Positions 3,025 to 41,503 of a stretch of 64,000 bases of DNA are shown piece after piece; within the stretch, counting starts at the first letter, position 1; each line of letters begins with the position of its first letter. Source of the stretch: Pseudomonadota bacterium (lineage in GTDB: Bacteria > Desulfobacterota > Desulfobulbia > Desulfobulbales > SURF-16); NCBI GenBank assembly GCA_018897105.1, contig JAHILF010000151.1:1-64000 (forward strand), given 5' to 3'. Both the position numbers and the translations under genes were made by a program. The notes below the pieces were generated by a model. It saw nothing but the letters and a program-made list of their open reading frames with translations, was not told the origin of the DNA and searched no databases.

Positions 3025-5352
3025 TCAGTTTTTCTCGTTTTCTTTCCACATCGGTCCTTTTGCCGTGTCGATCACGGTGATGCCCTGTTCTGCCAGCTTG
3101 ATTCGCACATCGTCCGCCTTGGCCCAGTCCTTTTCTTTCCGCGCCTTTTCCCGCTCCTGGATCAGCTTATCGATCTCAGGCGCCAGCGGACACTCCTCAA
3201 GTTTCAGGACATGGAAAACCGAGTCGATTCTTTCCAAGGTTTCCTTGATGTACTGTTTCTGATCACGGTCCAGCTGCCCGTCATTGATGATGGGGTTCAC
3301 CTTTTTGATGAAATCGAACAGGCTGCCAAAGGCCTTGGACACGTTCATGTCGTCATCCATGGCGGCCTGGAAGCTCTCTTCCATTTCGGTGACATAGGCT
3401 GCCACTTTTGGATGGGGCAGGTCCGGCGGCAGGCACTGGATTTTGCGAGTAAATTCATCAAGCCGTCTCAGGCTTGCCCTGGCCGCATCGATTTTCTTGT
3501 AGGAAAAGTTGATGGGTTTGCGGTAATGGTTGCGGATCATGAAAAAACGTATTTCCCGGGGACTATAGCCCTGTTCGACCAGCTGCCGCAGGGTGATGAC
3601 ATTGTTGTTGTCCAGGCTCATTTTTTTGCCGTCCACCAGCAGCAGTTCGCTGTGTATCCAGAACCGTGCCAGGGGTTTGCCGGTCAGGCTTTCGGCTATG
3701 GCGTTTTCATTTTCATGGTGCGGGAAGATGAGATCGCGGCCGCTGGTGTGGATATCCATGGTGTCGCCCAGATAATGCAGGGTCATGGCGGCGCATTCAA
3801 TGTGCCAGCCCGGCCGCATGTTGCCCCGGTCGGTCTGAAAGAAAATACCGCTTTTCAGCTCGGCCAGCGTTGACCGTTTCATCAGGGTGAAATCCAGCGG
3901 GTTGTTTTTATCGTAATTATCCAGGTCAACGGTCTTTCCCACCTGGATTTTGTCCAGCGGCACCCTGGAAAGCCTGCCGTAATTCTTGAATTTGCTGATG
4001 TCAAAATAGACCGAGCCGTGCTGCTCATAGGCGCACCCTTTATGGACCAGCTCATGGGCAATGTTGATCATCTCATCAACATGGTCCGAGGCGCGGGGAT
4101 AGCCGGTGGCCTTTTTTACCCCCAGGGCCTCGATTTCCTTCATGTACTCGCTGATATAGTATTCGGTGAATTCCTTCAGCGGTTGGCCCGCCTTGGCTGC
4201 GCCGGTGATGGTGTTGTCATCAAGGTCGGTGAAATTCATGTAAAAGTGGACATTGTAGCCCTTGTTGAGCAGGAGTCGGTGGATAAGATCCGCCACGATG
4301 AATCGTCGGCAGTGGGCCAGGTTGGTCTGCTCATAGGCGGTGGGGCCGCAGGCGTAAAAGGTCACTCTGTTGGGTGAAAGGGGCTGAAAAATTTCCTTTT
4401 TACGGTTCAGTGAGTTGAAAAATCGCAAGCCGGTTGTTCGTGTCTTTTTTTCTTTTTTGCGGGTGAACAGCTCCGTGCTCAGATATTTGTCGCCGCTGTC
4501 CGGCAGGATGACGACAATTACGCCCTCTTCGAGTTGTTCCGCCACCGTCAGGGCGGCATAAAGGGCTGCGCCGGAACTCATGCCGGCAAAAATTCCTTCC
4601 TTTCTGGCCAGCATCCTGGCGTGGCGAAAGGCCTCTTCGTCCGGGATATTGATGATCTGGTAGGGTTTGCTTTTGTTGAAAATTCCCGGCTTATAGGACT
4701 CTTTCATGTTCTTGAGCCCCTGGATTTTATGGCCGAGAAAGGGCTCCACCGCCGTTACCCGTACTTCAGGATGGTTGGCGGCGAAATAGTGGCACAGGCC
4801 CATCACCGTACCTGACGTGCCCAAGGTAGCCACCACATCGGTTACACTGCCGCCGGTCTGCTCCCAGATTTCCGGCCCGGTTGTTCTGACATGGGCCAAC
4901 CAGTTGGCATCATTATTAAACTGATCGGCGAGAAAATACTTGTCCGGATGTTCACGGGCCATGGCATAGGCTTTTTCAATGGCCCCGTCCGTGCCCCTTT
5001 TGCCCGGTGTCAAGAGGATTTCCGCCCCGTACGCCTCCATGATCTTGCGGCGTTCAATGCTGGCGGATTCAGGCATGATCAGCTGGCAACGGTATCCTTT
5101 TACCGCGCAGACCATGGAAAGGCCGATGCCGGTGTTGCCGCTGGTCGCCTCCAGCACTATTTTGTCAGGGGTCAGTTCCCCGGTTTTTTCCGCTGTCTCG
5201 ATCATTGACAGGGCAACACGATCCTTGACAGAGCCGCCCGGATTACCTGCCTCGAGTTTGGCGTAGATGGTGATGTTTTTATGGGGGTTCAACCGGTTGA
5301 TCGGCACGATTTTCGTGTTACCGATCAGATCAAGAATATTTTTATATTCCAT
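3025..5352 (-). CDS. Cysteine synthase-cysteinyl-tRNA synthetase fusion protein (CysK-CysS)
   Basis: The 775-residue protein joins two enzymes. Residues 1-300 are an O-acetylserine sulfhydrylase: PLP lysine K43 in NPGGSVKDR, substrate loop TSGNTG at 70-75, phosphate loop GTSGT near 178, and PDSGDKYLS. Residues 315-775 match cysteinyl-tRNA synthetase over its full usual length, with the zinc ligands C335, C521, H546 and E550 in place. However, the class I HIGH motif reads NLAH (344-347) and KMSKS reads KMSLD (578-582). The synthesis half should make cysteine from O-acetylserine and sulfide. Whether the second half charges tRNA-Cys is uncertain. The gene stands alone behind its own promoter. 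Such fusions are known in some sulfate reducers. Confidence 0.92.
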   Translation of the reverse strand: MEYKNILDLIGNTKIVPINRLNPHKNITIYAKLEAGNPGGSVKDRVALSMIETAEKTGELTPDKIVLEATSGNTGIGLSMVCAVKGYRCQLIMPESASIERRKIMEAYGAEILLTPGKRGTDGAIEKAYAMAREHPDKYFLADQFNNDANWLAHVRTTGPEIWEQTGGSVTDVVATLGTSGTVMGLCHYFAANHPEVRVTAVEPFLGHKIQGLKNMKESYKPGIFNKSKPYQIINIPDEEAFRHARMLARKEGIFAGMSSGAALYAALTVAEQLEEGVIVVILPDSGDKYLSTELFTRKKEKKTRTTGLRFFNSLNRKKEIFQPLSPNRVTFYACGPTAYEQTNLAHCRRFIVADLIHRLLLNKGYNVHFYMNFTDLDDNTITGAAKAGQPLKEFTEYYISEYMKEIEALGVKKATGYPRASDHVDEMINIAHELVHKGCAYEQHGSVYFDISKFKNYGRLSRVPLDKIQVGKTVDLDNYDKNNPLDFTLMKRSTLAELKSGIFFQTDRGNMRPGWHIECAAMTLHYLGDTMDIHTSGRDLIFPHHENENAIAESLTGKPLARFWIHSELLLVDGKKMSLDNNNVITLRQLVEQGYSPREIRFFMIRNHYRKPINFSYKKIDAARASLRRLDEFTRKIQCLPPDLPHPKVAAYVTEMEESFQAAMDDDMNVSKAFGSLFDFIKKVNPIINDGQLDRDQKQYIKETLERIDSVFHVLKLEECPLAPEIDKLIQEREKARKEKDWAKADDVRIKLAEQGITVIDTAKGPMWKENEKN

Positions 5353-6446: not shown

Positions 6447-7628
6447 CTATGCTGTTCTTTCATTCTCCAGTTTTACGGAGATTGCTATCTTATACAGCAC
6501 GGTAATAATAAAGAAACCGGTTGCCCAGATACCTGCGGTAATGCCTATTTCTACAAATGTCGGGACGTACTCGGTGATCTGCTCAAGTCCGTTCGGTACA
6601 AACCCGCCGAGGACCAAACCAAGACCCTTGTCAATCCAGAAAGAAACAAAGATCAGGATACAGGACAGGGCCAGCAGGGGGTCGGACTTCAAGTAGCGTG
6701 ACACAAAAATCAGGCCGATGCCGGCAAAGCCCATGATAACCGAGGCGCGCATGAACGGCACCAGGTTGTTGTATACCTCGCCTGTGGCGTGATCGGCCAG
6801 ACCAAAGTAAAGGTAATCCAGGGTATGCATATGACCCGGGATTTGGCTGTAGTAGGCGACAAATATCTCACAGCCCAGGAAGAAAAAGTTGAGCAGAGCT
6901 GCATAACCGATAATGGTTACCAGTTTGTCCTGGGCCACCCGGCCGATGTCAAATTTGGTGGTCCGTTTCATGATGAGAGCGATTACCATCAGCAGACAGG
7001 GTCCGGCGGCAAAAGCGGAGGCGAGAAAGCGGGGGGCCAGAATGGCGGTGAGCCAGAAGTGACGACCCGGCAGACCGCAGTACAGATAAGCTGTTACAGT
7101 ATGGATACTAACAGCCCAGGGGATGGAGATATAAATAAAAGGCTTGACCCAGCTGGGATATTTGATTCCCTGGTACTCAGAGTGCAGAACAACCCAGCCG
7201 CAAACCACATTGAGGAACAGATAGCCGCTTAGGACGATCATATCGTAGAACAGCATGGAGTTTGGTGTGGGATGCAAGACTACATTTAAAGCACGCATCG
7301 GCTGGCCAAGGTCTGCCATGATGAACAGCATACACATGGCAACTGCGGCGATGGCCATGAATTCACCCAGGATGGTGATCCGGGCGAAGTCCTTGTAATG
7401 GTGGAGATAATAGGGCAGAACAAGCATCAAACCACCGGCAGCGACACCGACCAGAAAGGTAAACTGGGAAATGTATATTCCCCATGTCACGTCGCGGCTC
7501 ATGCCCGTGGCGCCAAGTCCGTAGTTATACTGGACTATATAACAGATGACGCCCACCCCGATGATACCGAGCAGGAACAGTACCCATGCCCAGTATCCTA
7601 AGTTACCTTTGAGCGATTTTTCTAACAT
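6447..7628 (-). CDS. dsrP: DsrP, NrfD-like integral membrane subunit of the DsrMKJOP complex
   Basis: The 393-residue, strongly hydrophobic protein has about ten transmembrane segments and the NrfD/PsrC family layout, for example GGLMLVLPYYLHHY, ADLGQPMRA and FLASAFAAGPCLL. In the complex it handles menaquinol on the membrane side and passes electrons to or from the ferredoxin-like DsrO. It is the last gene of the dsrMKJOP operon, 11 bases after dsrO, and is followed by a strong terminator. Length and context fit DsrP well. The family alone (NrfD) would be ambiguous, but the neighbours settle it. Confidence 0.95.
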   Translation of the reverse strand: MLEKSLKGNLGYWAWVLFLLGIIGVGVICYIVQYNYGLGATGMSRDVTWGIYISQFTFLVGVAAGGLMLVLPYYLHHYKDFARITILGEFMAIAAVAMCMLFIMADLGQPMRALNVVLHPTPNSMLFYDMIVLSGYLFLNVVCGWVVLHSEYQGIKYPSWVKPFIYISIPWAVSIHTVTAYLYCGLPGRHFWLTAILAPRFLASAFAAGPCLLMVIALIMKRTTKFDIGRVAQDKLVTIIGYAALLNFFFLGCEIFVAYYSQIPGHMHTLDYLYFGLADHATGEVYNNLVPFMRASVIMGFAGIGLIFVSRYLKSDPLLALSCILIFVSFWIDKGLGLVLGGFVPNGLEQITEYVPTFVEIGITAGIWATGFFIITVLYKIAISVKLENERTA

Positions 7629-7639
7629 AATTGATCACC

Positions 7640-8497
7640 TTAGATTATATAAAATACTGAGGGCATGGTGCCCAAAGAGGGTTTACGTTGAATGGTGAAC
7701 CTTGCCCTCAATACCTGTGAAACTTCAGAATTCGGGTCATTCAGGTCACCAAAGACCATGGCACCAGTGCCAGCTGTTGCTTCCACACAGAGCGGCTGCA
7801 GACCCCTTTTCACGCGCAAATCACAGAAGCTGCATTTTTCAACAACACCCCGCATTCTGGTGGGAAATTCGTGGTTGATTTTTTTAATAAATGGCACACC
7901 GTCTTTGGAACCGCGGGGGTCACGCCAGTTGAAACTCCTGGCGCCGTAAGGGCAGGCAGCCATACAGAAGCGGCAGCCGATGCAGCGGTGAAAGTCCATC
8001 ATGACAATGCCGTCCGCGTTCTTGAAAGTGGCCTTGGTGGGACAGGCCCTTACGCAGGGCGGATTATCGCAGTGGTTGCAGAGCACCATGAACTGCATCG
8101 AGTGGGTCCGGTCATCCTTCTTGTAGTGGCTTTCGTCACCGGGAAAGGTATTGGCAAATGGCATCTGCCACAGCCATTTGATCTCATCCTTCTTGTTGCC
8201 GAAATCCGGCACATTGAAATATGAGTGGCAGGCTTCGATGCATTTTTCCGCCAACCCGTTATTGTCGTGGAATTTCACCGCGTCAATCACCATGCCGTAG
8301 CGTTTGCCGGCAGGGGCAGGGGCTGCTCCGTGGGCGCCTTCGCCGCCATGAGCATCGGTTTGAGCGCCATGACCGCCACCCTCTGATGATGCCCGTACCT
8401 CATTTTTCATCAGCATATTCAGGGCAGAAGGCGCTCCTATTCCGGCAACAGCTGATATGCCGGCAATCTTAAGGAATTTTCTTCTTGAACTATCCAT
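7640..8497 (-). CDS. dsrO: DsrO, periplasmic iron-sulfur subunit of DsrMKJOP
   Basis: The 285-residue protein starts MDSSRRKFLKIAG, a twin-arginine signal followed by a hydrophobic stretch. It then has an Ala/His/Gly-rich linker and ferredoxin-type cysteine clusters: CNHCDNPPCVRACP, CIGCRFCMAACPYGAR, and CSFCDLRVKRGLQPLC. These hold several 4Fe-4S clusters that would link DsrJ hemes and DsrP. The start was chosen at 8497 because the TAT motif must be N-terminal. This ATG overlaps the dsrJ stop by one base (TAATG), a sign of coupled translation. Confidence 0.95.
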   Translation of the reverse strand: MDSSRRKFLKIAGISAVAGIGAPSALNMLMKNEVRASSEGGGHGAQTDAHGGEGAHGAAPAPAGKRYGMVIDAVKFHDNNGLAEKCIEACHSYFNVPDFGNKKDEIKWLWQMPFANTFPGDESHYKKDDRTHSMQFMVLCNHCDNPPCVRACPTKATFKNADGIVMMDFHRCIGCRFCMAACPYGARSFNWRDPRGSKDGVPFIKKINHEFPTRMRGVVEKCSFCDLRVKRGLQPLCVEATAGTGAMVFGDLNDPNSEVSQVLRARFTIQRKPSLGTMPSVFYII

Positions 8498-8892
8498 TAT
8501 CTCGCCTCCTTCAATGCCACATCTTCCTGGGGTGCGACATGGCAGTCCCAACAGTATGGATATACAGAAGCATACTCGTGACACGTGTCACAGAATTTCT
8601 TCTTGCTGGTGTGACAGTGCATACAGCCGTTCTGCAAACTTTTTTCGTACATTACGCCGCCGACTTCTATTGGTTCTCTTTTCCCTTCACGAAGGACTTC
8701 ATCACGCCAGACGTTCAGGAGTTCCATGTGTGACTCTTTCATATACTGAAGGGGTTTCACACATTCCTTGTACCCAACCGGTTTTTCCGGTTTGGGCGCC
8801 TCAACCTTTCCCCCGCCGTCCCAAAGAACGGCAAATAGCATCAGGCCGACGAAAATAATCAGGCCGGGAATAATTGTTCCTTTGTTGTACAT
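8497..8892 (-). CDS. dsrJ: DsrJ, triheme cytochrome c of DsrMKJOP
   Basis: The 131-residue protein has an uncleaved N-terminal membrane helix (residues 6-24) and three CxxCH heme sites: CMHCH 90-94, CDTCH 101-105 and CWDCH 114-118. A lone Cys44 matches the place of the cysteine proposed in DsrJ of other organisms as an unusual His/Cys heme ligand (inference from position). The start at 8892 follows the dsrK stop by four bases and has a GGAGGG ribosome site inside the dsrK end. It faces the periplasm. Confidence 0.94.
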   Translation of the reverse strand: MYNKGTIIPGLIIFVGLMLFAVLWDGGGKVEAPKPEKPVGYKECVKPLQYMKESHMELLNVWRDEVLREGKREPIEVGGVMYEKSLQNGCMHCHTSKKKFCDTCHEYASVYPYCWDCHVAPQEDVALKEAR

Positions 8893-8896
8893 ATAA

Positions 8897-10522
8897 TTAT
8901 CCCTCCATTCCTTCAAGAGGTTCAAAACGGAGTCCCGTTTCCCTCTCTTTTTCGCCGTCCATAATGAGGGCATTGCCGACCATTTCCGAAAGTCCGCATA
9001 CGCCGACAGTCGGGTTCCAGTATTCCATCAGAGCTGAAAGTGTTGCACGGTCAATGGCGCAGACGCAGCTGAGCATGTTGACGTTGAATTTGTCTACTAC
9101 ATGTTTTACCGCATTGGCCCTGGGCAAACCGGAACGCATCCTGAGCTCCATGATCTCACCGGTGTTGAGGCCGGTGCCGCTGCCGCAGCAGAAGGTCTTC
9201 TCACGGATGGTGTTTTCCGGCATCTCGTACCACTTGGGCACCACATGATCGAGGATATAGCGGGGCTCATCCAGCAGACCCATGGCCCGAGCCGGGTTGC
9301 AGGAGTCATGGTAGGTCGGGATGCGATGGGCGTTGCGCATCGGGTCGAGTTTCAGTTTGTTGTTTTTGATCAGGTCAGCCGTGAATTCGCTGATATGCAC
9401 CATCTTGGTTGAGGCCGCATTTTCAAAGACGGTGCCGGTGATCGGTGATTTGGGCACCTCAAGGTGATCGGCAGGACCGTTCATGGTGTCCATATACTGG
9501 TGCAGAACACGCCACATGTGGCCGCATTCCCCTCCCAGGATCCATTTAACCCCGAGCCTCTTGGACTCGGCGTACATCTTGGCGTTCAGTTTCTTCATCA
9601 TCTCGTTGTTGGTGAAGAGACCGAAGTTGCCGCCCTCGGATGAGTAGGTCGACCAGGTATAATCCAGACCGATATGCTCAAAGAGCAGCAGATAACCCAT
9701 GGCGGTGTAAATGCCCGGTTCGGCAAAGACGTCGGCAGAGGGGGTAATGAAGAGAATCTCGGCACCCTTGCGGTTCCAGGTGGGGGTAATTCTGATGCCG
9801 GTAATCGTCTCGATGTCATCGCAGAGGTATTCGACGTTTTCCTTTAAAGTATGGGGCTGCAGACCCATGTGGTTACCGGTGCGGTTGGAGTTTGCCGCCG
9901 GTTCCAGGATCCAGTTGGTGCCCACGCCGACCAGATGCAGCAGTTCGCGCATCATCATGGTGATTTCCGCGGTGTCAATGCCGTAGGGGCAGAAGACGGA
10001 GCAGCGGCGGCATTCCGTGCACTGATAGGAGTACATGAACCATTCTTTCAGCACACCGACGGTCATGGGACGGCCGCCTGCCAGCTTGCCCAGCAGTTTA
10101 CCGGCGGTGGTGAAATCATTGCGGTAAACGGAGCGGAGCAGTTCCGCCCGGAGCACCGGCATGTTCTTCGGATCGCCCGTGCCCAGGAAAAAGTGGCACT
10201 TATCCGCGCAGGCGCCACACCTGACACAGATGTCCATGAAAATTTTCAAAGAGCGGAATTTATCCAGCCGCTCTTTCAAGCCATTTAAGATGATATCCTC
10301 CCAGCCATCCGGCAGTTTCCAGTCCTCCTGGTCGGGGCTCCATTCCCGGGGATTAGGAAACTTGTGGTATTCCACCATGGATTTTTTGGCAGGATAACAG
10401 AAGTTGCCCTCCTTGAATATAGCCGGAACATCCATCCAGTCCTTCTTGGGGATGGATCCGGTCATCAGGGATGGCTCCCTTACTACGCTTACACCTAATT
10501 GAGCTGCTTTTGGAATCGCCAT
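8897..10522 (-). CDS. dsrK: DsrK, HdrD-like catalytic iron-sulfur subunit of DsrMKJOP
   Basis: The 541-residue cytoplasmic protein has two 4Fe-4S motifs (CVRCGACADKCHFF and CTECRRCSVFCPYG). These are followed by two CCG-type domains (GGECGHMWR, YHDSCNPARAMG, KTFCCGSGTGLN) as in heterodisulfide reductase HdrD, which bind the special catalytic 4Fe-4S cluster. It is thought to reduce the DsrC trisulfide during sulfite reduction. It lies between dsrM (5-base gap) and dsrJ. All cysteines expected for HdrD-type catalysis appear present. Confidence 0.96.
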   Translation of the reverse strand: MAIPKAAQLGVSVVREPSLMTGSIPKKDWMDVPAIFKEGNFCYPAKKSMVEYHKFPNPREWSPDQEDWKLPDGWEDIILNGLKERLDKFRSLKIFMDICVRCGACADKCHFFLGTGDPKNMPVLRAELLRSVYRNDFTTAGKLLGKLAGGRPMTVGVLKEWFMYSYQCTECRRCSVFCPYGIDTAEITMMMRELLHLVGVGTNWILEPAANSNRTGNHMGLQPHTLKENVEYLCDDIETITGIRITPTWNRKGAEILFITPSADVFAEPGIYTAMGYLLLFEHIGLDYTWSTYSSEGGNFGLFTNNEMMKKLNAKMYAESKRLGVKWILGGECGHMWRVLHQYMDTMNGPADHLEVPKSPITGTVFENAASTKMVHISEFTADLIKNNKLKLDPMRNAHRIPTYHDSCNPARAMGLLDEPRYILDHVVPKWYEMPENTIREKTFCCGSGTGLNTGEIMELRMRSGLPRANAVKHVVDKFNVNMLSCVCAIDRATLSALMEYWNPTVGVCGLSEMVGNALIMDGEKERETGLRFEPLEGMEG

Positions 10523-10527
10523 TTTAT

Positions 10528-11523
10528 TTATTCCTTTTCAACTGGGATACCGGCATCTTTCATGAATTCCCTGAATTCATCTTCATAAGCCGCATATGAA
10601 TGGGGCTTGATTGCCGGATCGTTCCATGGGTTAATATGTCTGACCGCACGATTGTTATTTGACATGTTACGTGTGGGACTGAGGAAAACCCCGCCCATAT
10701 GCATCAGTTTGCTGAATGGGAAGTAAACCATCAATGTGCACACCAGGGTGACATGGACGAAGAAAATGGAATGAATTCCCGCCGGCAGAGTAGGTGAAAA
10801 GGCTGCCAGACCGGCCGTAAGCTGTTTTACCGCCGCGATATCCACCCGGTAGACGTAGCGCATGAGCAGACCGGTGACGCCGATGGCAAAGATCAGAATG
10901 AGGGGAAAGTAGTCAGCCGGCAGTGATATGTAGCGAACCAGGCGCGATATCAGCCGTCTCAGGAAAAGGAAAGCAATGGCCGCCAGAAAGATGCTGTCGG
11001 TCAGGTACAAGCGGGGAGCACCGATCTGCAGCATGCCATCCGCGAATTCAATCAGCGGAACAAAAAATGGGATTGGCGCAGTGAAAAGCCGCAGGTGACG
11101 GAGAACGATAACAAGAAATGAGTAGTGAAACAGCAAAGCAAAGAGCCAGAGGTATTTACTGGACCCATAGACCAGTTTCGGACCGTCATGAATTTCTGCT
11201 TTGGTGTTTCTGAAGAGTGATCGGAAAAGGAAGATTTCCAGAATCATTCTGCCCAAGACTTCCAGCTTGTTGGATGGACAGTCAAGTCTGTCCGGCTTGA
11301 TCCAGGGCAGTGATTTTTCCTGCCCGCAGGTGGTTGGAATTCGGAATGGTACCGGAGATTTTGCCCAGTTTAGCACACGACTGACAAACCCCACGATAAA
11401 CACACCGAACGCCAGGTAGGGTAGCACCACCCCCAACAGATACTGCAGACCTGTTACCTTCCCTCCCAAGAAGGCAACCACGATCAGTGCTAAGACTGCA
11501 ATGAAGGGATACAGGACTCTCAT
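10528..11523 (-). CDS. dsrM: DsrM, membrane cytochrome b subunit of DsrMKJOP
   Basis: The 331-residue protein has about six transmembrane segments of the NarI/HdrE type. Histidines within them are suitable for b-heme ligation (LLFHYSFLVIVLRHLRLF and IFFVHVTLVCTLMVYFPFSKLMHM). It would oxidise menaquinol and pass electrons to DsrK. It starts the dsrMKJOP order and follows the RsbRD-like gene by about 80 bases without an obvious terminator, so the two are probably cotranscribed. Confidence 0.95.
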   Translation of the reverse strand: MRVLYPFIAVLALIVVAFLGGKVTGLQYLLGVVLPYLAFGVFIVGFVSRVLNWAKSPVPFRIPTTCGQEKSLPWIKPDRLDCPSNKLEVLGRMILEIFLFRSLFRNTKAEIHDGPKLVYGSSKYLWLFALLFHYSFLVIVLRHLRLFTAPIPFFVPLIEFADGMLQIGAPRLYLTDSIFLAAIAFLFLRRLISRLVRYISLPADYFPLILIFAIGVTGLLMRYVYRVDIAAVKQLTAGLAAFSPTLPAGIHSIFFVHVTLVCTLMVYFPFSKLMHMGGVFLSPTRNMSNNNRAVRHINPWNDPAIKPHSYAAYEDEFREFMKDAGIPVEKE

Positions 11524-11604
11524 TTACCGTTACCTCGCCTCAATTAAGTGTGTATAAAGTTCCCGTAGCGCATGCCTGGTTAGGGCAAGGAGCTAGCGGG
11601 GCCA

Positions 11605-12225
11605 CTAAAACTGCAACACCTGCGGTTTCACTCCGCAGGTATCATTTATAACCGGCACATTTTGACCATCAGGGGCATCCCCGGCCTCTGCCGCAATTGC
11701 TTCCTGGTTGTTCCTGCGCACAAGAGCAGAGGGGCAGATGGACCCGGTAATCATATGTCTTCCATGCTGGAATTCATTTACTCGCACCTGGTAGACCTGT
11801 TCCTTGCTGGCCATGAACATGTCAAATATGACAAGCGCAGCGGCATCAATCCTGGCGTCAAATGCCAGCCATTCAATATATAATTCGGCCATTCCTTTTT
11901 TCAGGAGCTCCTTTCGCACAATCCCTTTCAGTTTGAAAATGAAAGAAACCGCATCTGCCGCTGAAACCTGCTGAACCGCCCTCATTTTGATGAGCTGCGT
12001 GAGGTCCGGGGTGAGAATCTCTTTGTTGCTTGGTTCGCAAAGGACATCATAAAGTTCGGCAAGCCCGGTTCTGACTTTGTGACCTATGGGATTGGCAAAC
12101 GGGTCCTTCTGTTTTTTAAAGATATGATATGCATCAGGAGAGAAGCTGCTTAAAATGGTGTCTTCCCATTTCTCCAAGATTTCAACTTTTTTTCCGTGCA
12201 GCAATTTTTCTAGTTTGTTTTCCAT
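11605..12225 (-). CDS. RsbRD N-terminal domain protein at the head of the dsr operon
   Basis: The 206-residue soluble protein has a helical region (KLLHGKKVEILEKWEDTIL through LLKKGMAELYIEWLAFDARIDAAALVIFDMF) that matches the RsbRD N-terminal sensor domain, a globin-like helical fold. The C-terminal 50 residues are low in structure and lack a STAS domain. Genes of this kind commonly precede dsrM in sulfate reducers. Its role there is not established. A regulatory or sensing role for the dsr complex is an inference. A perfect 8-bp hairpin lies inside the last 35 bases of the coding region. Confidence 0.85.
   Translation of the reverse strand: MENKLEKLLHGKKVEILEKWEDTILSSFSPDAYHIFKKQKDPFANPIGHKVRTGLAELYDVLCEPSNKEILTPDLTQLIKMRAVQQVSAADAVSFIFKLKGIVRKELLKKGMAELYIEWLAFDARIDAAALVIFDMFMASKEQVYQVRVNEFQHGRHMITGSICPSALVRRNNQEAIAAEAGDAPDGQNVPVINDTCGVKPQVLQF
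11618..11640 (-). other. Stem-loop at the 3' end of the RsbRD-like coding region
   Basis: ACCTGCGG (11618-11625) pairs perfectly with CCGCAGGT (11633-11640) around a 7-base loop. It lies just before the stop and about 100 bases ahead of dsrM. With no T run it is not a terminator. It may be an mRNA processing or stability element that separates the expression levels of the two cistrons. Confidence 0.4.
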
Positions 12226-38244: not shown

Positions 38245-39489
38245 TTACATTTCCACAATCAACTTGTTGGATTCTTCATTCCAGTCCACCGTGATATACC
38301 AGAAAAGCAGGAAGGCAGCGATGAGAAACAATGATCCGCCATAGCCCATGACGTCCGGCAGATAGACATATTTGCCAAGAACGCCGTCAGCCTCAAACTC
38401 CCTGTCGAGGAACCAGGCGGTCATGATGGAGTTAGTGATACCGAAAATCGGCACCACGATCCACAGCTTTACCTGTCCTTCACCGACACGCCAGAGGGTT
38501 CCGGTACCACAGCCGCCGGCCAGCATGGCGCCGAGGCCAAAGACAATACCGCCGACCACGCCGCCCCAGCCGAAGGTGCCACGCACATAGTTCATGGGTG
38601 CCAGTACGGGGTCACCGTCAAGCCTGACCGGAACACCGTATTTGAGAACCGCTGCCCCGAGGGCTACGATAAAAATACTCAGTGCCACGGATTTGGCCAT
38701 GGTGCAGTTACCGGTCATATGGGGTTCCCGGAAACCCTGGATCATACACCAGCGGCCGCGCTGCATGGAGTAGCCGATGGCTGAGGCAATCAGCATGAGA
38801 CCGCCAAGCGAGGCGATATAATCACTGTCTTCATTCCCTGAGTACATATAGGTGCCGGCAATCAGGGCAACGATGGCGACGATGCCGAGCAGGAAGTTCA
38901 GCCCCTTGGGAAATTCGATGGTTTTGGCGCCGCCGCTGCCCCAGGAGATATGTTCCATTTCCCAGTATATGTATTTGAGGCCGACGATGACGCCGATCAC
39001 CAAACCTGCCCACATGGCAAAACCATGGGCGGACAGGTTGCCGATGGCATTGTAGAAACCGCCAACATTACAGCCGCCGGCCAAGGTTGCGCCGATTCCC
39101 ATGAAGACGCCGGCAACCAATGCCTTGCATATTTCCAGCACCGGCGGGATACGGATGGCGAAATCATTGCCCAGGCAGGCTGAAACAAAAGCCCCGCCCA
39201 CAAAACCGATGCCGATAACCGAGCCGGTGTTTGTCAGAATGGAGCCGGGTGCATCTTCATAGTAACCGAAAATGCCTGCATCTGAGCCGATCAGGCTGGT
39301 GATGCCGTACATGATCCAGTCGCCCCAGTTACGGATGGCGCCCACTGCTCCCCATGGCCGCCACCAGGCCATGATCAGGATAGTGAACAGGGCCACCAGC
39401 ACACCCGTCATAGTGGCATTCCACTCAGACTGACAGAGGCTCTTATACAGCCCCTTGATTTTACTTCCTAAAATGCTTTCTTCACTCAT
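38245..39489 (-). CDS. YeeE/YedE-family sulfur-compound transporter
   Basis: The 414-residue membrane protein has two YeeE repeats, each with the substrate-path signature: MGIGATLAGGCNVGG and LGAMLAGGCGTGTLW. YeeE proteins import thiosulfate and relay it past conserved cysteines (family knowledge). It is divergent from tusA and dsrE-type genes, which fits sulfur import and transfer to TusA. About ten transmembrane helices. It runs as a single-gene unit with its own promoter and terminator. Confidence 0.92.
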   Translation of the reverse strand: MSEESILGSKIKGLYKSLCQSEWNATMTGVLVALFTILIMAWWRPWGAVGAIRNWGDWIMYGITSLIGSDAGIFGYYEDAPGSILTNTGSVIGIGFVGGAFVSACLGNDFAIRIPPVLEICKALVAGVFMGIGATLAGGCNVGGFYNAIGNLSAHGFAMWAGLVIGVIVGLKYIYWEMEHISWGSGGAKTIEFPKGLNFLLGIVAIVALIAGTYMYSGNEDSDYIASLGGLMLIASAIGYSMQRGRWCMIQGFREPHMTGNCTMAKSVALSIFIVALGAAVLKYGVPVRLDGDPVLAPMNYVRGTFGWGGVVGGIVFGLGAMLAGGCGTGTLWRVGEGQVKLWIVVPIFGITNSIMTAWFLDREFEADGVLGKYVYLPDVMGYGGSLFLIAAFLLFWYITVDWNEESNKLIVEM

Positions 39490-39542
39490 CTCTTTTCTCC
39501 CCTATTTTAATGTTTCCTCTATTGACAGCATCCACTATTAAA

Positions 39543-39559
39543 GCCTGAACCATACTTCA
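39543..39559 (+). promoter_or_regulatory. Direct repeat copy 1 with TGAA-N6-TTCA dyad
   Basis: GCCTGAACCATACTTCA lies between the yeeE promoter and its start codon. It differs at two positions from the second copy 135 bases to the right. Confidence 0.5.
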
Positions 39560-39600
39560 AAGGAAGTCATTAATCACTTACAATCCATAACATTTATAAT

Positions 39601-39629
39601 CATTTACTCGCGACGAAAAAAATTGTCAA
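39601..39629 (-). promoter_or_regulatory. Putative yeeE promoter
   Basis: Minus-strand TTGACA (39629-39624), 17-base spacer, TAAATG (39606-39601). The -35 is perfect and the -10 weak. Confidence 0.45.
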
Positions 39630-39677
39630 GCATGTTATAGCAGGGATTTGTCGGCAAAAATTAAGGATAATAATAAT

Positions 39678-39694
39678 GCCTGAACCATGATTCA
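39678..39694 (+). promoter_or_regulatory. Direct repeat copy 2 with TGAA-N6-TTCA dyad
   Basis: GCCTGAACCATGATTCA lies 9 bases upstream of the tusA -35 box. Its core TGAACCATGATTCA is an imperfect palindrome centred on CATG. Confidence 0.5.
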
Positions 39695-39703
39695 TTTTTC
39701 GTC

Positions 39704-39732
39704 TTGACATAACATTTCTTTCTTGTTATTTG
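39704..39732 (+). promoter_or_regulatory. tusA operon promoter
   Basis: TTGACA (39704-39709), 17-base spacer, TATTTG (39727-39732), 126 bases ahead of the tusA start. Confidence 0.5.
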
Positions 39733-39857
39733 AAATCGTGTATCAATATATGATTACTCATTTAATCATCTCATTATTGCCTGGCGCTTCAATCCTTTTC
39801 GTCAGGCGGTTTGAGGTAAAAGTTTTTCAAAGTCAAATCTGTTGTGAGGAGGAAACG

Positions 39858-40115
39858 ATGAGCGACATAAAAAAAGCCCCGGATAACGTACAAGCTGCTC
39901 GCACTCTCGATGCAAAAGGTCTGAGTTGTCCAATGCCTTTACTGCGCACCAAAAAAGAAATTGACAAGATCAAATCCGGTGAGATTCTGGAAGTTCTCGG
40001 AACCGATCCTGGTTCACGTAACGACCTGCCGGGCTGGTGCACCCGGGCTGGGCATGAGTTTGTGGGAGAGAAGGAAGAATCCGGCTATTTCCGTTTCTTT
40101 ATTAAGAAAAAATAA
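39858..40115 (+). CDS. tusA: TusA-family sulfurtransferase
   Basis: The 85-residue protein has the family core LDAKGLSCPMPLLRTKKEI, with the persulfide-carrying Cys in CPMP, and the second half of the fold (EVLGTDPGSRNDLPGWC). TusA proteins carry sulfane sulfur between enzymes. The start at 39858 has an excellent GAGGAGGAAACG ribosome site. Upstream in-frame ATG codons lie in the leader. It begins the sulfur cluster facing yeeE. Confidence 0.93.
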   Translation: MSDIKKAPDNVQAARTLDAKGLSCPMPLLRTKKEIDKIKSGEILEVLGTDPGSRNDLPGWCTRAGHEFVGEKEESGYFRFFIKKK

Positions 40116-40202
40116 GTGACAAGAAAAATATGTAATTATTAATGACGGCGCATTTGCCAAAAGCGGAGGCGCCGTTCTTGTTTGCTTTAATGGAGGAATA
40201 AC

Positions 40203-40520
40203 ATGGCAAAAAGTATAGGGATTTTTGTAACATCCCCCCAGAACATGCGGCATGTTGAGGGTATCACCAAAGCTGCCGTGGCAAAAGGCGCTAAAGTAAA
40301 GGTCTTTTTTACCTGGATGTCCACCCATCTGACCAAGTGCCCAAACTTTAAAGCGCTTTGCGATATGGAGAACGTTGATGTTTCCATCTGTGCAGACAGC
40401 TATAAGAAATGCGGCTATGACGTAGCCGACATCCCGCCGGGGCTGGTACAGGAAAAAATGGCCACCCAGGCACAGCATGGCGCTATCATTGAAGATTATG
40501 AATGCTATCTGACTTTATAG
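40203..40520 (+). CDS. DsrE-family sulfur relay protein
   Basis: The 105-residue protein starts AKSIGIFVTSPQNM and has conserved cysteines in SICADSYKKCGYDV, the DsrE/TusD catalytic region. It also has KCPNFKALC upstream. It would accept sulfur from TusA as a persulfide. It has a GGAGG ribosome site and lies 88 bases after tusA. It is not DsrE of an oxidative dsr cluster by context alone, so no finer name is given. Confidence 0.85.
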   Translation: MAKSIGIFVTSPQNMRHVEGITKAAVAKGAKVKVFFTWMSTHLTKCPNFKALCDMENVDVSICADSYKKCGYDVADIPPGLVQEKMATQAQHGAIIEDYECYLTL

Positions 40521-40529
40521 GAGGAACCG

Positions 40530-40850
40530 ATGTCAAAGAAAGTATGCTTTATGTACCCCAGCAGCGACTATATCCTTGATGGTGTCAGATCAGCTCTCGG
40601 TCTTGCCGTGGAAAATATGTATGCCTATGGTGTTGTCATGTACAACGAGATAGACGAGAACATGATGACCGATTACCATAAGGAAAATATCGACTGGATT
40701 CGTGATATGGAAGGTGAGATTTTTTCCATTCCTGATGGCAATGTGGAGAAATACGGCTTGGTTAAAATGACTCTTGAGGAACTTGGACAGAAGCTTCGGG
40801 ACATAGAAATCATTGTACCCTATGGCATTATGAGAAGTGATAAGAGCTGA
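40530..40850 (+). CDS. DsrE/F-like protein
   Basis: The 106-residue protein (MSKKVCFMYPSSDYILDGVRSALGL) has the small alpha/beta fold order expected for a DsrF/TusC-type partner of the preceding DsrE-type protein. It has only one cysteine (Cys5) and many acidic residues. The start is 9 bases after the previous stop, with a GGAGG site. With the 57-residue protein it may complete a DsrEFH-like hetero-oligomer (inference). Confidence 0.65.
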   Translation: MSKKVCFMYPSSDYILDGVRSALGLAVENMYAYGVVMYNEIDENMMTDYHKENIDWIRDMEGEIFSIPDGNVEKYGLVKMTLEELGQKLRDIEIIVPYGIMRSDKS

Positions 40851-40893
40851 TTTTAGCAACTGAGAGTTAAGATCTTACAGGGGAGAATGCAAA

Positions 40894-41067
40894 ATGAAAA
40901 TCCTGCATGTATACCGTTCCGAGCCTAATGACGATGTCAAGAGATTGGTTGAGATCGTCTCCGAAGGCCGTGATAATGAAAATTTTAATCTGAATGTAGA
41001 TGCTCCTGACTATGATAAGCTTGTCGATATGGTCTGGGGCGCAGATCAGACTATCTGCTGGTGGTAA
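40894..41067 (+). CDS. 57-residue protein, last gene of the tusA cluster
   Basis: The short gene begins MKILHVYRSEPNDDVKRL behind a strong AGGGGAG ribosome site and ends DQTICWW. It is acidic and has a single cysteine, third from the end. The place, size and terminal cysteine resemble DsrH/TusB, whose active Cys also lies near the C-terminus, but it is about half the length of DsrH. It is followed 39 bases on by a terminator. Good codon structure and ribosome site make it likely to be real. Confidence 0.7.
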   Translation: MKILHVYRSEPNDDVKRLVEIVSEGRDNENFNLNVDAPDYDKLVDMVWGADQTICWW

Positions 41068-41105
41068 ATCCCGCCCGCTGCTGATATAGCATTTAGCATT
41101 ATCAC

Positions 41106-41142
41106 AAAAAACCCGTCAGGTATACACCTGGCGGGTTTTTTT
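41106..41142. terminator. Bidirectional terminator between the tusA cluster and the secretion operon
   Basis: AAAAACCCGTCAGGT and ACCTGGCGGGTTTTT form a stem with an ATAC loop, with A and T runs on both sides. It ends the convergent transcripts of the tusA cluster and of the gsp operon. Confidence 0.92.
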
Positions 41143-41170
41143 GTGCCGTTGCTGGTAGCAAGTCTTCTTT

Positions 41171-41503
41171 CTATGCTTTGATCTGTTCCTCCTGCAGCAT
41201 ACTGTCCACAAAGCCGAGAAGATAGTCCCGCTGGGCCTTGGTTGCGTAGCTGATGCAGGAGCAGTGTAAATTGCTCTGGCTCCTGATCAGCAATTCTATG
41301 ATCAGCTTTTTCTCCGCCAGTTCCAGACCGAAGAAAAAAGGACCACATTTTTCGTGACCATGTTGCGCCTCAGCCAGCAGGTCATCCGGGACCGGCAGCC
41401 AGAACATACCCTCCATGCCCCCTTGCCTCGCCGTTCTCTTTAGATAGTTATCCAGGTTGTCTCGTTCTTCCCTGCTGAGCTCATCAATTACAAACTGTCG
41501 CAT
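41171..41503 (-). CDS. Conserved-type hypothetical protein at the end of the gsp operon
   Basis: The 110-residue acidic protein (MRQFVIDELSREERDNLDNYL) has two closely spaced cysteines (HCSC) and HGHEKCGPFFF, but no signal peptide or known family. It begins 16 bases after the gspD stop and ends before a strong bidirectional terminator, so it is probably the last cistron of the secretion operon. Confidence 0.7.
   Translation of the reverse strand: MRQFVIDELSREERDNLDNYLKRTARQGGMEGMFWLPVPDDLLAEAQHGHEKCGPFFFGLELAEKKLIIELLIRSQSNLHCSCISYATKAQRDYLLGFVDSMLQEEQIKA

Follow-up and report, generated by a model that had tools for sequence, protein, structure and literature searches.

The locus at positions 38,245 to 41,067 of the 64,000-nucleotide stretch of DNA analysed here (contig JAHILF010000151.1 of assembly GCA_018897105.1; hereafter 'the window') belongs to an uncultured member of the Desulfobulbales and is a YTD cluster, made up of yeeE/yedE, tusA and dsrEFH type II. 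The five-gene system is already known, having been named in 2020 and identified as of the DsrEFH type in 2026, and its novelty is low. The locus adds a well-resolved example of DsrEFH type II for a Desulfobulbales lineage, DsrEFH type II being a proposed marker of sulfate reducers that can also oxidize sulfur.

A transporter gene diverges from four co-directional genes: tusA, dsrE, a dsrF-like gene for a 106-residue protein and a gene for a 57-residue protein. The gaps between successive members of the latter group are 87, 9 and 43 bases. Two of the five proteins score far over the Pfam cut-offs, the transporter with Sulf_transp (138.9 bits) and TusA with its own family (95.8 bits). All five genes had been picked out by a first-pass annotation of the window, made by a model from the sequence alone, and all are present; the range it gave (39489-41067), however, begins with the transporter's initiation codon and leaves the gene itself (38245-39489) outside.

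Credit for the YTD cluster is given to Umezawa et al. 2020 by later papers (PMC9751629, PMC12998232). Its definition as a syntenic set consisting of a yedE-like gene, tusA, a dsrE-like gene and two to three genes for conserved hypothetical proteins (PMC12998232) describes this locus, as judged by synteny and by Pfam and NCBIfam scores. The same five genes occur in the same arrangement in Desulfobacterota, and no difference of kind was found from the YTD cluster as set out in the available published text. The name DsrEFH type II was given to cable-bacterial proteins, whose heterotrimer was purified (PMC13293266, May 2026). Two of its features are found here: the three small genes adjoin one another and lie next to tusA and yeeE/yedE, and DsrE has a conserved active-site cysteine (Cys63, in 55 of 55 orthologues), presumably equivalent to Cys67 of Electronema. 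The two systems share the gene order with tusA and yeeE, a DsrE with one invariant cysteine, and DsrF-like and small DsrH-like subunits; the three small chains total 30.6 kDa here, and the predicted mass of the Electronema heterotrimer, with its tag, is 33 kDa (PMC13293266). They differ in genus and in the number of the active-site cysteine. A slightly earlier study modelled a DsrEFH-like double heterotrimer from the DsrE-like protein, Chp1 and Chp2, describing the complex as non-orthologous, and found no alignment of the small protein with DsrH (PMC13047784, March 2026).

The cluster is well conserved as a unit. The order tusA, dsrE, 106-residue gene, 57-residue gene is colinear in 59 of 60 fetched loci (five of the 60 being second fetches of loci already included), the remaining locus being cut by a contig end. 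Amongst 80 named loci from genome contigs, 69 carry all five genes, the rest being truncated by contig ends or lacking a nearby transporter gene; 76 have the 57-residue gene, and the remaining four break off before reaching it. Among the named carriers are Desulforhopalus singaporensis, Desulfopila aestuarii, Desulfofustis glycolicus and Desulfoprunum benzoelyticum, and the nearest carriers include metagenome-assembled genomes labelled Desulfurivibrio sp. SURF_16 and Desulfobulbaceae SZUA-615.

Features of the cluster and of the dsrMKJOP operon, in window coordinates
Feature	Position	Strand	Basis
dsrMKJOP operon	6447-12225	-	model scores; haem motifs for dsrJ
YeeE/YedE-type sulfur transporter, 414 amino acids	38245..39489	-	Pfam Sulf_transp 138.9 bits
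Intergenic region of the divergent yeeE and tusA genes, with blocks of conservation	39490..39857	.	MAFFT alignment, six same-genus loci
tusA, 85 amino acids, predicted sulfane-sulfur carrier, CPMP motif (Cys24)	39858..40115	+	Pfam TusA, E 1.4e-27
GC-rich hairpin, then T-rich stretch, between tusA and dsrE (gap 40116-40202)	40144..40176	+	RNA fold
dsrE type II, 105 amino acids	40203..40520	+	Pfam DsrE-like, below cut-off
dsrF type II (chp), 106 amino acids, DsrE/F fold in the model, without conserved cysteine	40530..40850	+	AlphaFold2, VIA-align
dsrH type II (chp), 57 amino acids, miniature beta-alpha-beta-alpha-beta subunit, Trp-Trp end	40894..41067	+	conservation, AlphaFold2
Intrinsic terminator just 3' of the 57-residue gene, closing the tusA-dsrEFH unit	41106..41145	+	RNA fold, T run

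The small subunits

The window's DsrE falls below the cut-off of the Pfam DsrE family (PF02635; 15.6 bits against 22.7), and the family is matched by 13 of 16 DsrE type II proteins of relatives. Cys63 is predicted to be the persulfide-carrying cysteine, from its conservation and from the published role of Cys67 in the Electronema orthologue as the site of the sulfur. The 106-residue protein has no match in Pfam or NCBIfam, and nothing credible came from searches of PDB sequences. Its AlphaFold2 model (mean predicted local distance difference test score, pLDDT, 92.5) clearly has the DsrE/F fold: the best VIA-align match is 3mc3 (Z 10.4 over 96 residues, 3.2 Å), and the top matches also include TusD (2d1p_A, Z 8.5) and DsrE (2hy5_A, Z 8.4). 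The only cysteine of this subunit is conserved in just 41% of orthologues.

The 57-residue protein is a real and strongly conserved subunit, the counterpart of DsrH. Its length is 56-58 residues in all 76 copies from the named loci, and 75 of these end in Trp-Trp, the exception stopping at a contig edge. In the phylum, the protein as query matches 74 of 395 sampled genomes, nearly always over positions 1-57, and none of these matches has an internal stop. A chance open reading frame is ruled out by this conservation, and with it the prospect, which the first-pass annotation had made one test of its proposal, that the gene would prove not to be conserved. That annotation's description of a tiny acidic protein with a Cys-Trp-Trp tail holds (computed pI 4.35, C-terminus ICWW), the Trp-Trp being invariant and the cysteine, Cys55, 70% conserved, with replacement in about 30% of orthologues. 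Its further suggestion of a DsrH-like member shrunk to 57 residues agrees with the counterpart in the published DsrEFH type II, and the DsrH-like ends described below are suggestive of it.

Family and fold searches with the 57-residue protein are largely silent. It has no match in Pfam, including DsrH (PF04077), or in NCBIfam, and a search of PDB sequences returned nothing credible; the hemagglutinin matches in the searches with this and the 106-residue protein, at E 0.26 or worse, are taken as chance. The AlphaFold2 model is confident (pLDDT 96.0) and has the order beta-alpha-beta-alpha-beta. Foldseek found no match to it under E 0.001, and its VIA-align matches are weak and tied, with no DsrH or TusB chain amongst the matches listed by either program. 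At rank 5 stands the DsrE-family protein YchN (Z 4.8, root-mean-square deviation 2.6), in an alignment that takes in 56 of the 57 residues and spreads them over YchN residues 2-117, and this spread fits a chain without its middle. The subunit is probably structural, and not a carrier of sulfur.

The transporter and TusA

The transporter is a permuted-half and only distant relative of the YeeE (TsuA) of Spirochaeta thermophila: the chain 6leo_A is matched with its halves swapped, query residues 232-351 pairing with chain residues 6-115 and query residues 92-160 with chain residues 244-310. Four cysteines (Cys19, Cys140, Cys248 and Cys327) are each at least 99% conserved amongst 70 full-length transporter sequences, and the last three of them belong to AGGC and RGRxC motifs that resemble the ones in YeeE. 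The NCBIfam TsuA model gives 84.6 bits, well below its cut-off of 645, and the best NCBIfam match is the selenium protein YedE/FdhT, far under its cut-off.

The start of tusA is the ATG at 39858 and not the upstream TTG of the longest open reading frame. Cys24 of TusA is invariant amongst 53 orthologues, and the protein scores 65.2 bits on the TusA model against 16.6 on the TsuB/YeeD model, for which the cut-off is 147.5. The YeeE-YeeD (TsuA-TsuB) pair of S. thermophila (6leo, 8j4c) has in common with this system the transporter family and the AGGC and RGRxC cysteines, and differs from it in the arrangement of the transporter halves, in the low TsuA and TsuB scores obtained here and in having a YeeD rather than a TusA type of protein.

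A proposed sulfur relay and its alternatives

The genome has dsrA with an adjoining second match consistent with dsrB, the reductive marker dsrD, and also dsrC, aprA and sat. Within the window, dsrM, dsrK, dsrO and dsrP exceed the cut-offs of their models; the open reading frame at the dsrJ position carries three haem motifs (CMHCH, CDTCH and CWDCH). Upstream of dsrM lies a gene for a 206-residue protein with an RsbRD_N domain.

The cluster is very probably a YTD/DsrEFH type II relay that feeds DsrC and the Dsr system. The proposal is built on what is observed at this locus and in its genome: gene content and conservation, the modelled folds of subunits F and H, the invariant cysteines and the accompanying Dsr genes. 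The membrane protein would pass sulfane sulfur inward, derived from polysulfide or possibly from thiosulfate. Cys24 of TusA would take this sulfur as a persulfide and hand it to Cys63 of DsrE, itself part of a small DsrE-DsrF-DsrH heterotrimer that would deliver it to DsrC. DsrC would then feed DsrAB/DsrMKJOP, a system of the reductive type that would operate oxidatively, for sulfide or sulfur oxidation or for the oxidative arm of disproportionation. That the relay steps are those of cable bacteria we infer, as we do the substrate and the physiological direction; for the proteins of Electronema aureum, sulfur transfer from TusA to DsrE Cys67 and on to DsrC has been reported in vitro (PMC13293266). 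The first-pass annotation had likewise arrived at a reduced TusBCD/DsrEFH-like relay beside a YeeE-family transporter, a conclusion that was published in 2026 (PMC13293266), and its idea that the relay supplies sulfane sulfur to the Dsr system agrees with the reductive dsr genes of this genome and with the transfer shown for the orthologues.

Several points weigh against this assignment. The literature disagrees on which way the sulfur flows: PMC12998232 retains the cluster as a candidate for disproportionation, PMC13293266 makes a case for sulfur oxidation in general, and PMC13047784, which calls the complex non-orthologous, links it to thiosulfate decomposition. The Pfam links of the F and H subunit families to canonical DsrF and DsrH are weak, with essentially no match, and a global hhalign comparison of the 57-residue family with five DsrH/TusB sequences gave a probability of 0.9%.

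An alternative that we regard as improbable, though deserving of some weight, is that the cluster serves thiosulfate import and cleavage, in which YeeE would import thiosulfate, TusA would split it as YeeD/TsuB does and the DsrEFH-like complex would take the sulfane sulfur. A version of this is favoured in PMC13047784, and it draws strength from the membership of the transporter in Sulf_transp, the family to which the thiosulfate transporter YeeE/TsuA also belongs, with Cys140, Cys248 and Cys327 in matching motifs, and from Desulfolithobacter, where thiosulfate disproportionation goes with higher levels of all five proteins than sulfate reduction does (PMC9751629). However, the window's TusA scores as a TusA and not as a TsuB/YeeD, the transporter lies far below the TsuA cut-off, and in the in vitro assay of PMC13293266 none of the cable-bacterial proteins TusA, DsrEFH type II and DsrC became persulfidated with thiosulfate. 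Thiosulfate as the imported substrate, which the first-pass annotation had favoured, is therefore not upheld, given the distance of this transporter from the solved one and the inertness of thiosulfate in that assay. Much less probable again is a biosynthetic relay, serving tRNA thiolation, like E. coli TusBCD, or selenium metabolism, like YedE/YedF, rather than energy metabolism. The TusA-TusBCD-like architecture would suit such a role, as would the top NCBIfam match of the transporter to YedE/FdhT, though this is far under the cut-off. The patchy spread of the 57-residue gene (74 of 395 phylum genomes) is unlike that of a housekeeping pathway, and in the published account dsrEFH type II occurs with reductive dsrAB in 73.9% of genomes and is strongly expressed under sulfur-energy conditions.

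Origin of the 57-residue protein

The canonical DsrEFH of Allochromatium vinosum (2HY5) and TusBCD of E. coli (2D1P) resemble the present system in the DsrE/F fold of the 106-residue protein, the single invariant cysteine of DsrE and the DsrH-like end blocks of the 57-residue protein. They differ in that their DsrH has 95-102 residues rather than 57, in the DsrH Cys20 position, which is not a cysteine here, in the Pfam scores, which here are under cut-off or absent, and in the accompanying dsr genes, which here are reductive and not oxidative. Canonical DsrH scores over its cut-off in only one of 297 phylum genomes and in no sequence of this genome; further searches found no type I DsrH in viral contigs and a few TusB copies in plasmid records.

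Compared with DsrH/TusB, the 57-residue protein is similar at both ends and lacks about 40 central residues. At the N terminus, ILHVYRSEP pairs with MLHTLHRSP of TusB and ILHTVNKSP of DsrH; at the C terminus, DYDKLVDM..ADQTICW pairs with DYAGFVDLTTECDTVQAW at the end of DsrH/TusB. A. vinosum DsrH reaches a summed score of 48.5 over the two blocks, E. coli TusB 43.5 and Proteus TusB 40.8. In a null of 5,102 windows drawn from long open reading frames of the 64-kb window, the highest score is 39.0 and the 99% level 31.8. Klebsiella TusB (33.1) and the sequence L148 (38.6) lie over the 99% level and under the null maximum, whilst neither TusC nor TusD, taken at full length, exceeds the 99% level. 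The N-terminal block of E. coli TusB gives p 0.0002, a value that, like the others, is optimistic, since the two-block anchoring was chosen after the similarity of the ends had been seen. The homology with DsrH is suggestive and not proof, because the anchoring was post hoc and the global profile alignment is unsupportive. The end blocks nonetheless suggest, at the level of sequence, homology rather than analogy of the 57-residue protein with DsrH/TusB. The evidence for a shortened DsrH bears on a dispute between the two papers of 2026, homologue versus structural analogue: PMC13047784 has a structural analogue, whereas the end-block comparison argues for homology of the H subunit.

A different origin, which we consider unlikely but a serious competitor, is that the protein is a DsrE-type chain ending after its third strand, and not a DsrH with its centre deleted; Cys55 would then stand at the place of the DsrE active-site cysteine. 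The profile of the 57-residue family does match some relatives' DsrE type II along PDF-x-KLVQMI-x(2)-ADLAIC, a stretch whose last residue is the active-site cysteine. This likeness of the C-terminal block is seen in relatives L024, L027 and L030, with an independent E of about 5e-6 for L024, and in this block 49% of the DsrE type II set score over the 99% null level. The N-terminal block, however, fits DsrH (ILH...SP) and not DsrE, only 4% of DsrE sequences being over the 99% null level. The loss of Cys55 from about 30% of orthologues also speaks against a cut DsrE, as does the published finding that DsrH was not persulfidated by TusA (PMC13293266).

Noncoding elements of the cluster

The gap between tusA and dsrE can fold into a recurring hairpin. 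The RNA fold of 40134-40190 has an energy of -19.2 kcal/mol (z -2.27), with a strong stem and a weak T tract. Amongst 75 relatives, 29 have a stem with a T run between these two genes, against 1.5 expected from mononucleotide shuffles; the 16 longer dsrF-dsrH gaps examined in relatives have none. Its position is kept between genera whilst its sequence differs. The hairpin may act in partial termination or in RNA processing; in Electronema it would be no full stop, because co-transcription of the cluster is reported there (PMC13293266). No description of it was found in the available text of the literature on this cluster.

Taken jointly, the ideas that the 57-residue protein is a DsrH/TusB homologue without its central third, that DsrEFH type II descends from DsrEFH/TusBCD and does not owe its likeness to convergence, and that the operon is split by a recurring hairpin make a tentative proposal, whose chances we put a little short of even. 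If it is true, the hairpin lets TusA be made in an amount different from that of DsrEFH.

Downstream of the 57-residue gene, the RNA fold of 41100-41145 has an energy of -26.8 kcal/mol (z -7.6), and terminator-like sites within 150 bases of the end of this gene are found in 42 of 75 relatives, against 2.8 expected. Convergent with the gene is an open reading frame for a 110-residue protein (41171-41503, minus strand), which has no Pfam or NCBIfam match. In the divergent region between yeeE and tusA, conserved blocks in the six same-genus loci include TTGACA at 39704-39709 and, on the minus strand, TTGACA around 39630. A direct repeat, TGAACCAT, is located at 39546 and 39681, and the exact pair is present in four of the six loci.

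Other features of the window

At 3025-5352 on the minus strand, an open reading frame of 775 residues encodes a cysteine synthase (PALP, residues 7-285) fused to a full cysteinyl-tRNA synthetase, with the domains tRNA-synt_1e, DALR_2 and CysS_C. Cysteine persulfide is a reported product of cysteinyl-tRNA synthetases. Separate CysS-like and CysK-like genes are also present in this genome beside the fusion, and near full-length fusions of the CysK-CysS type were found in 18 of the 19 genomes searched, this one included.

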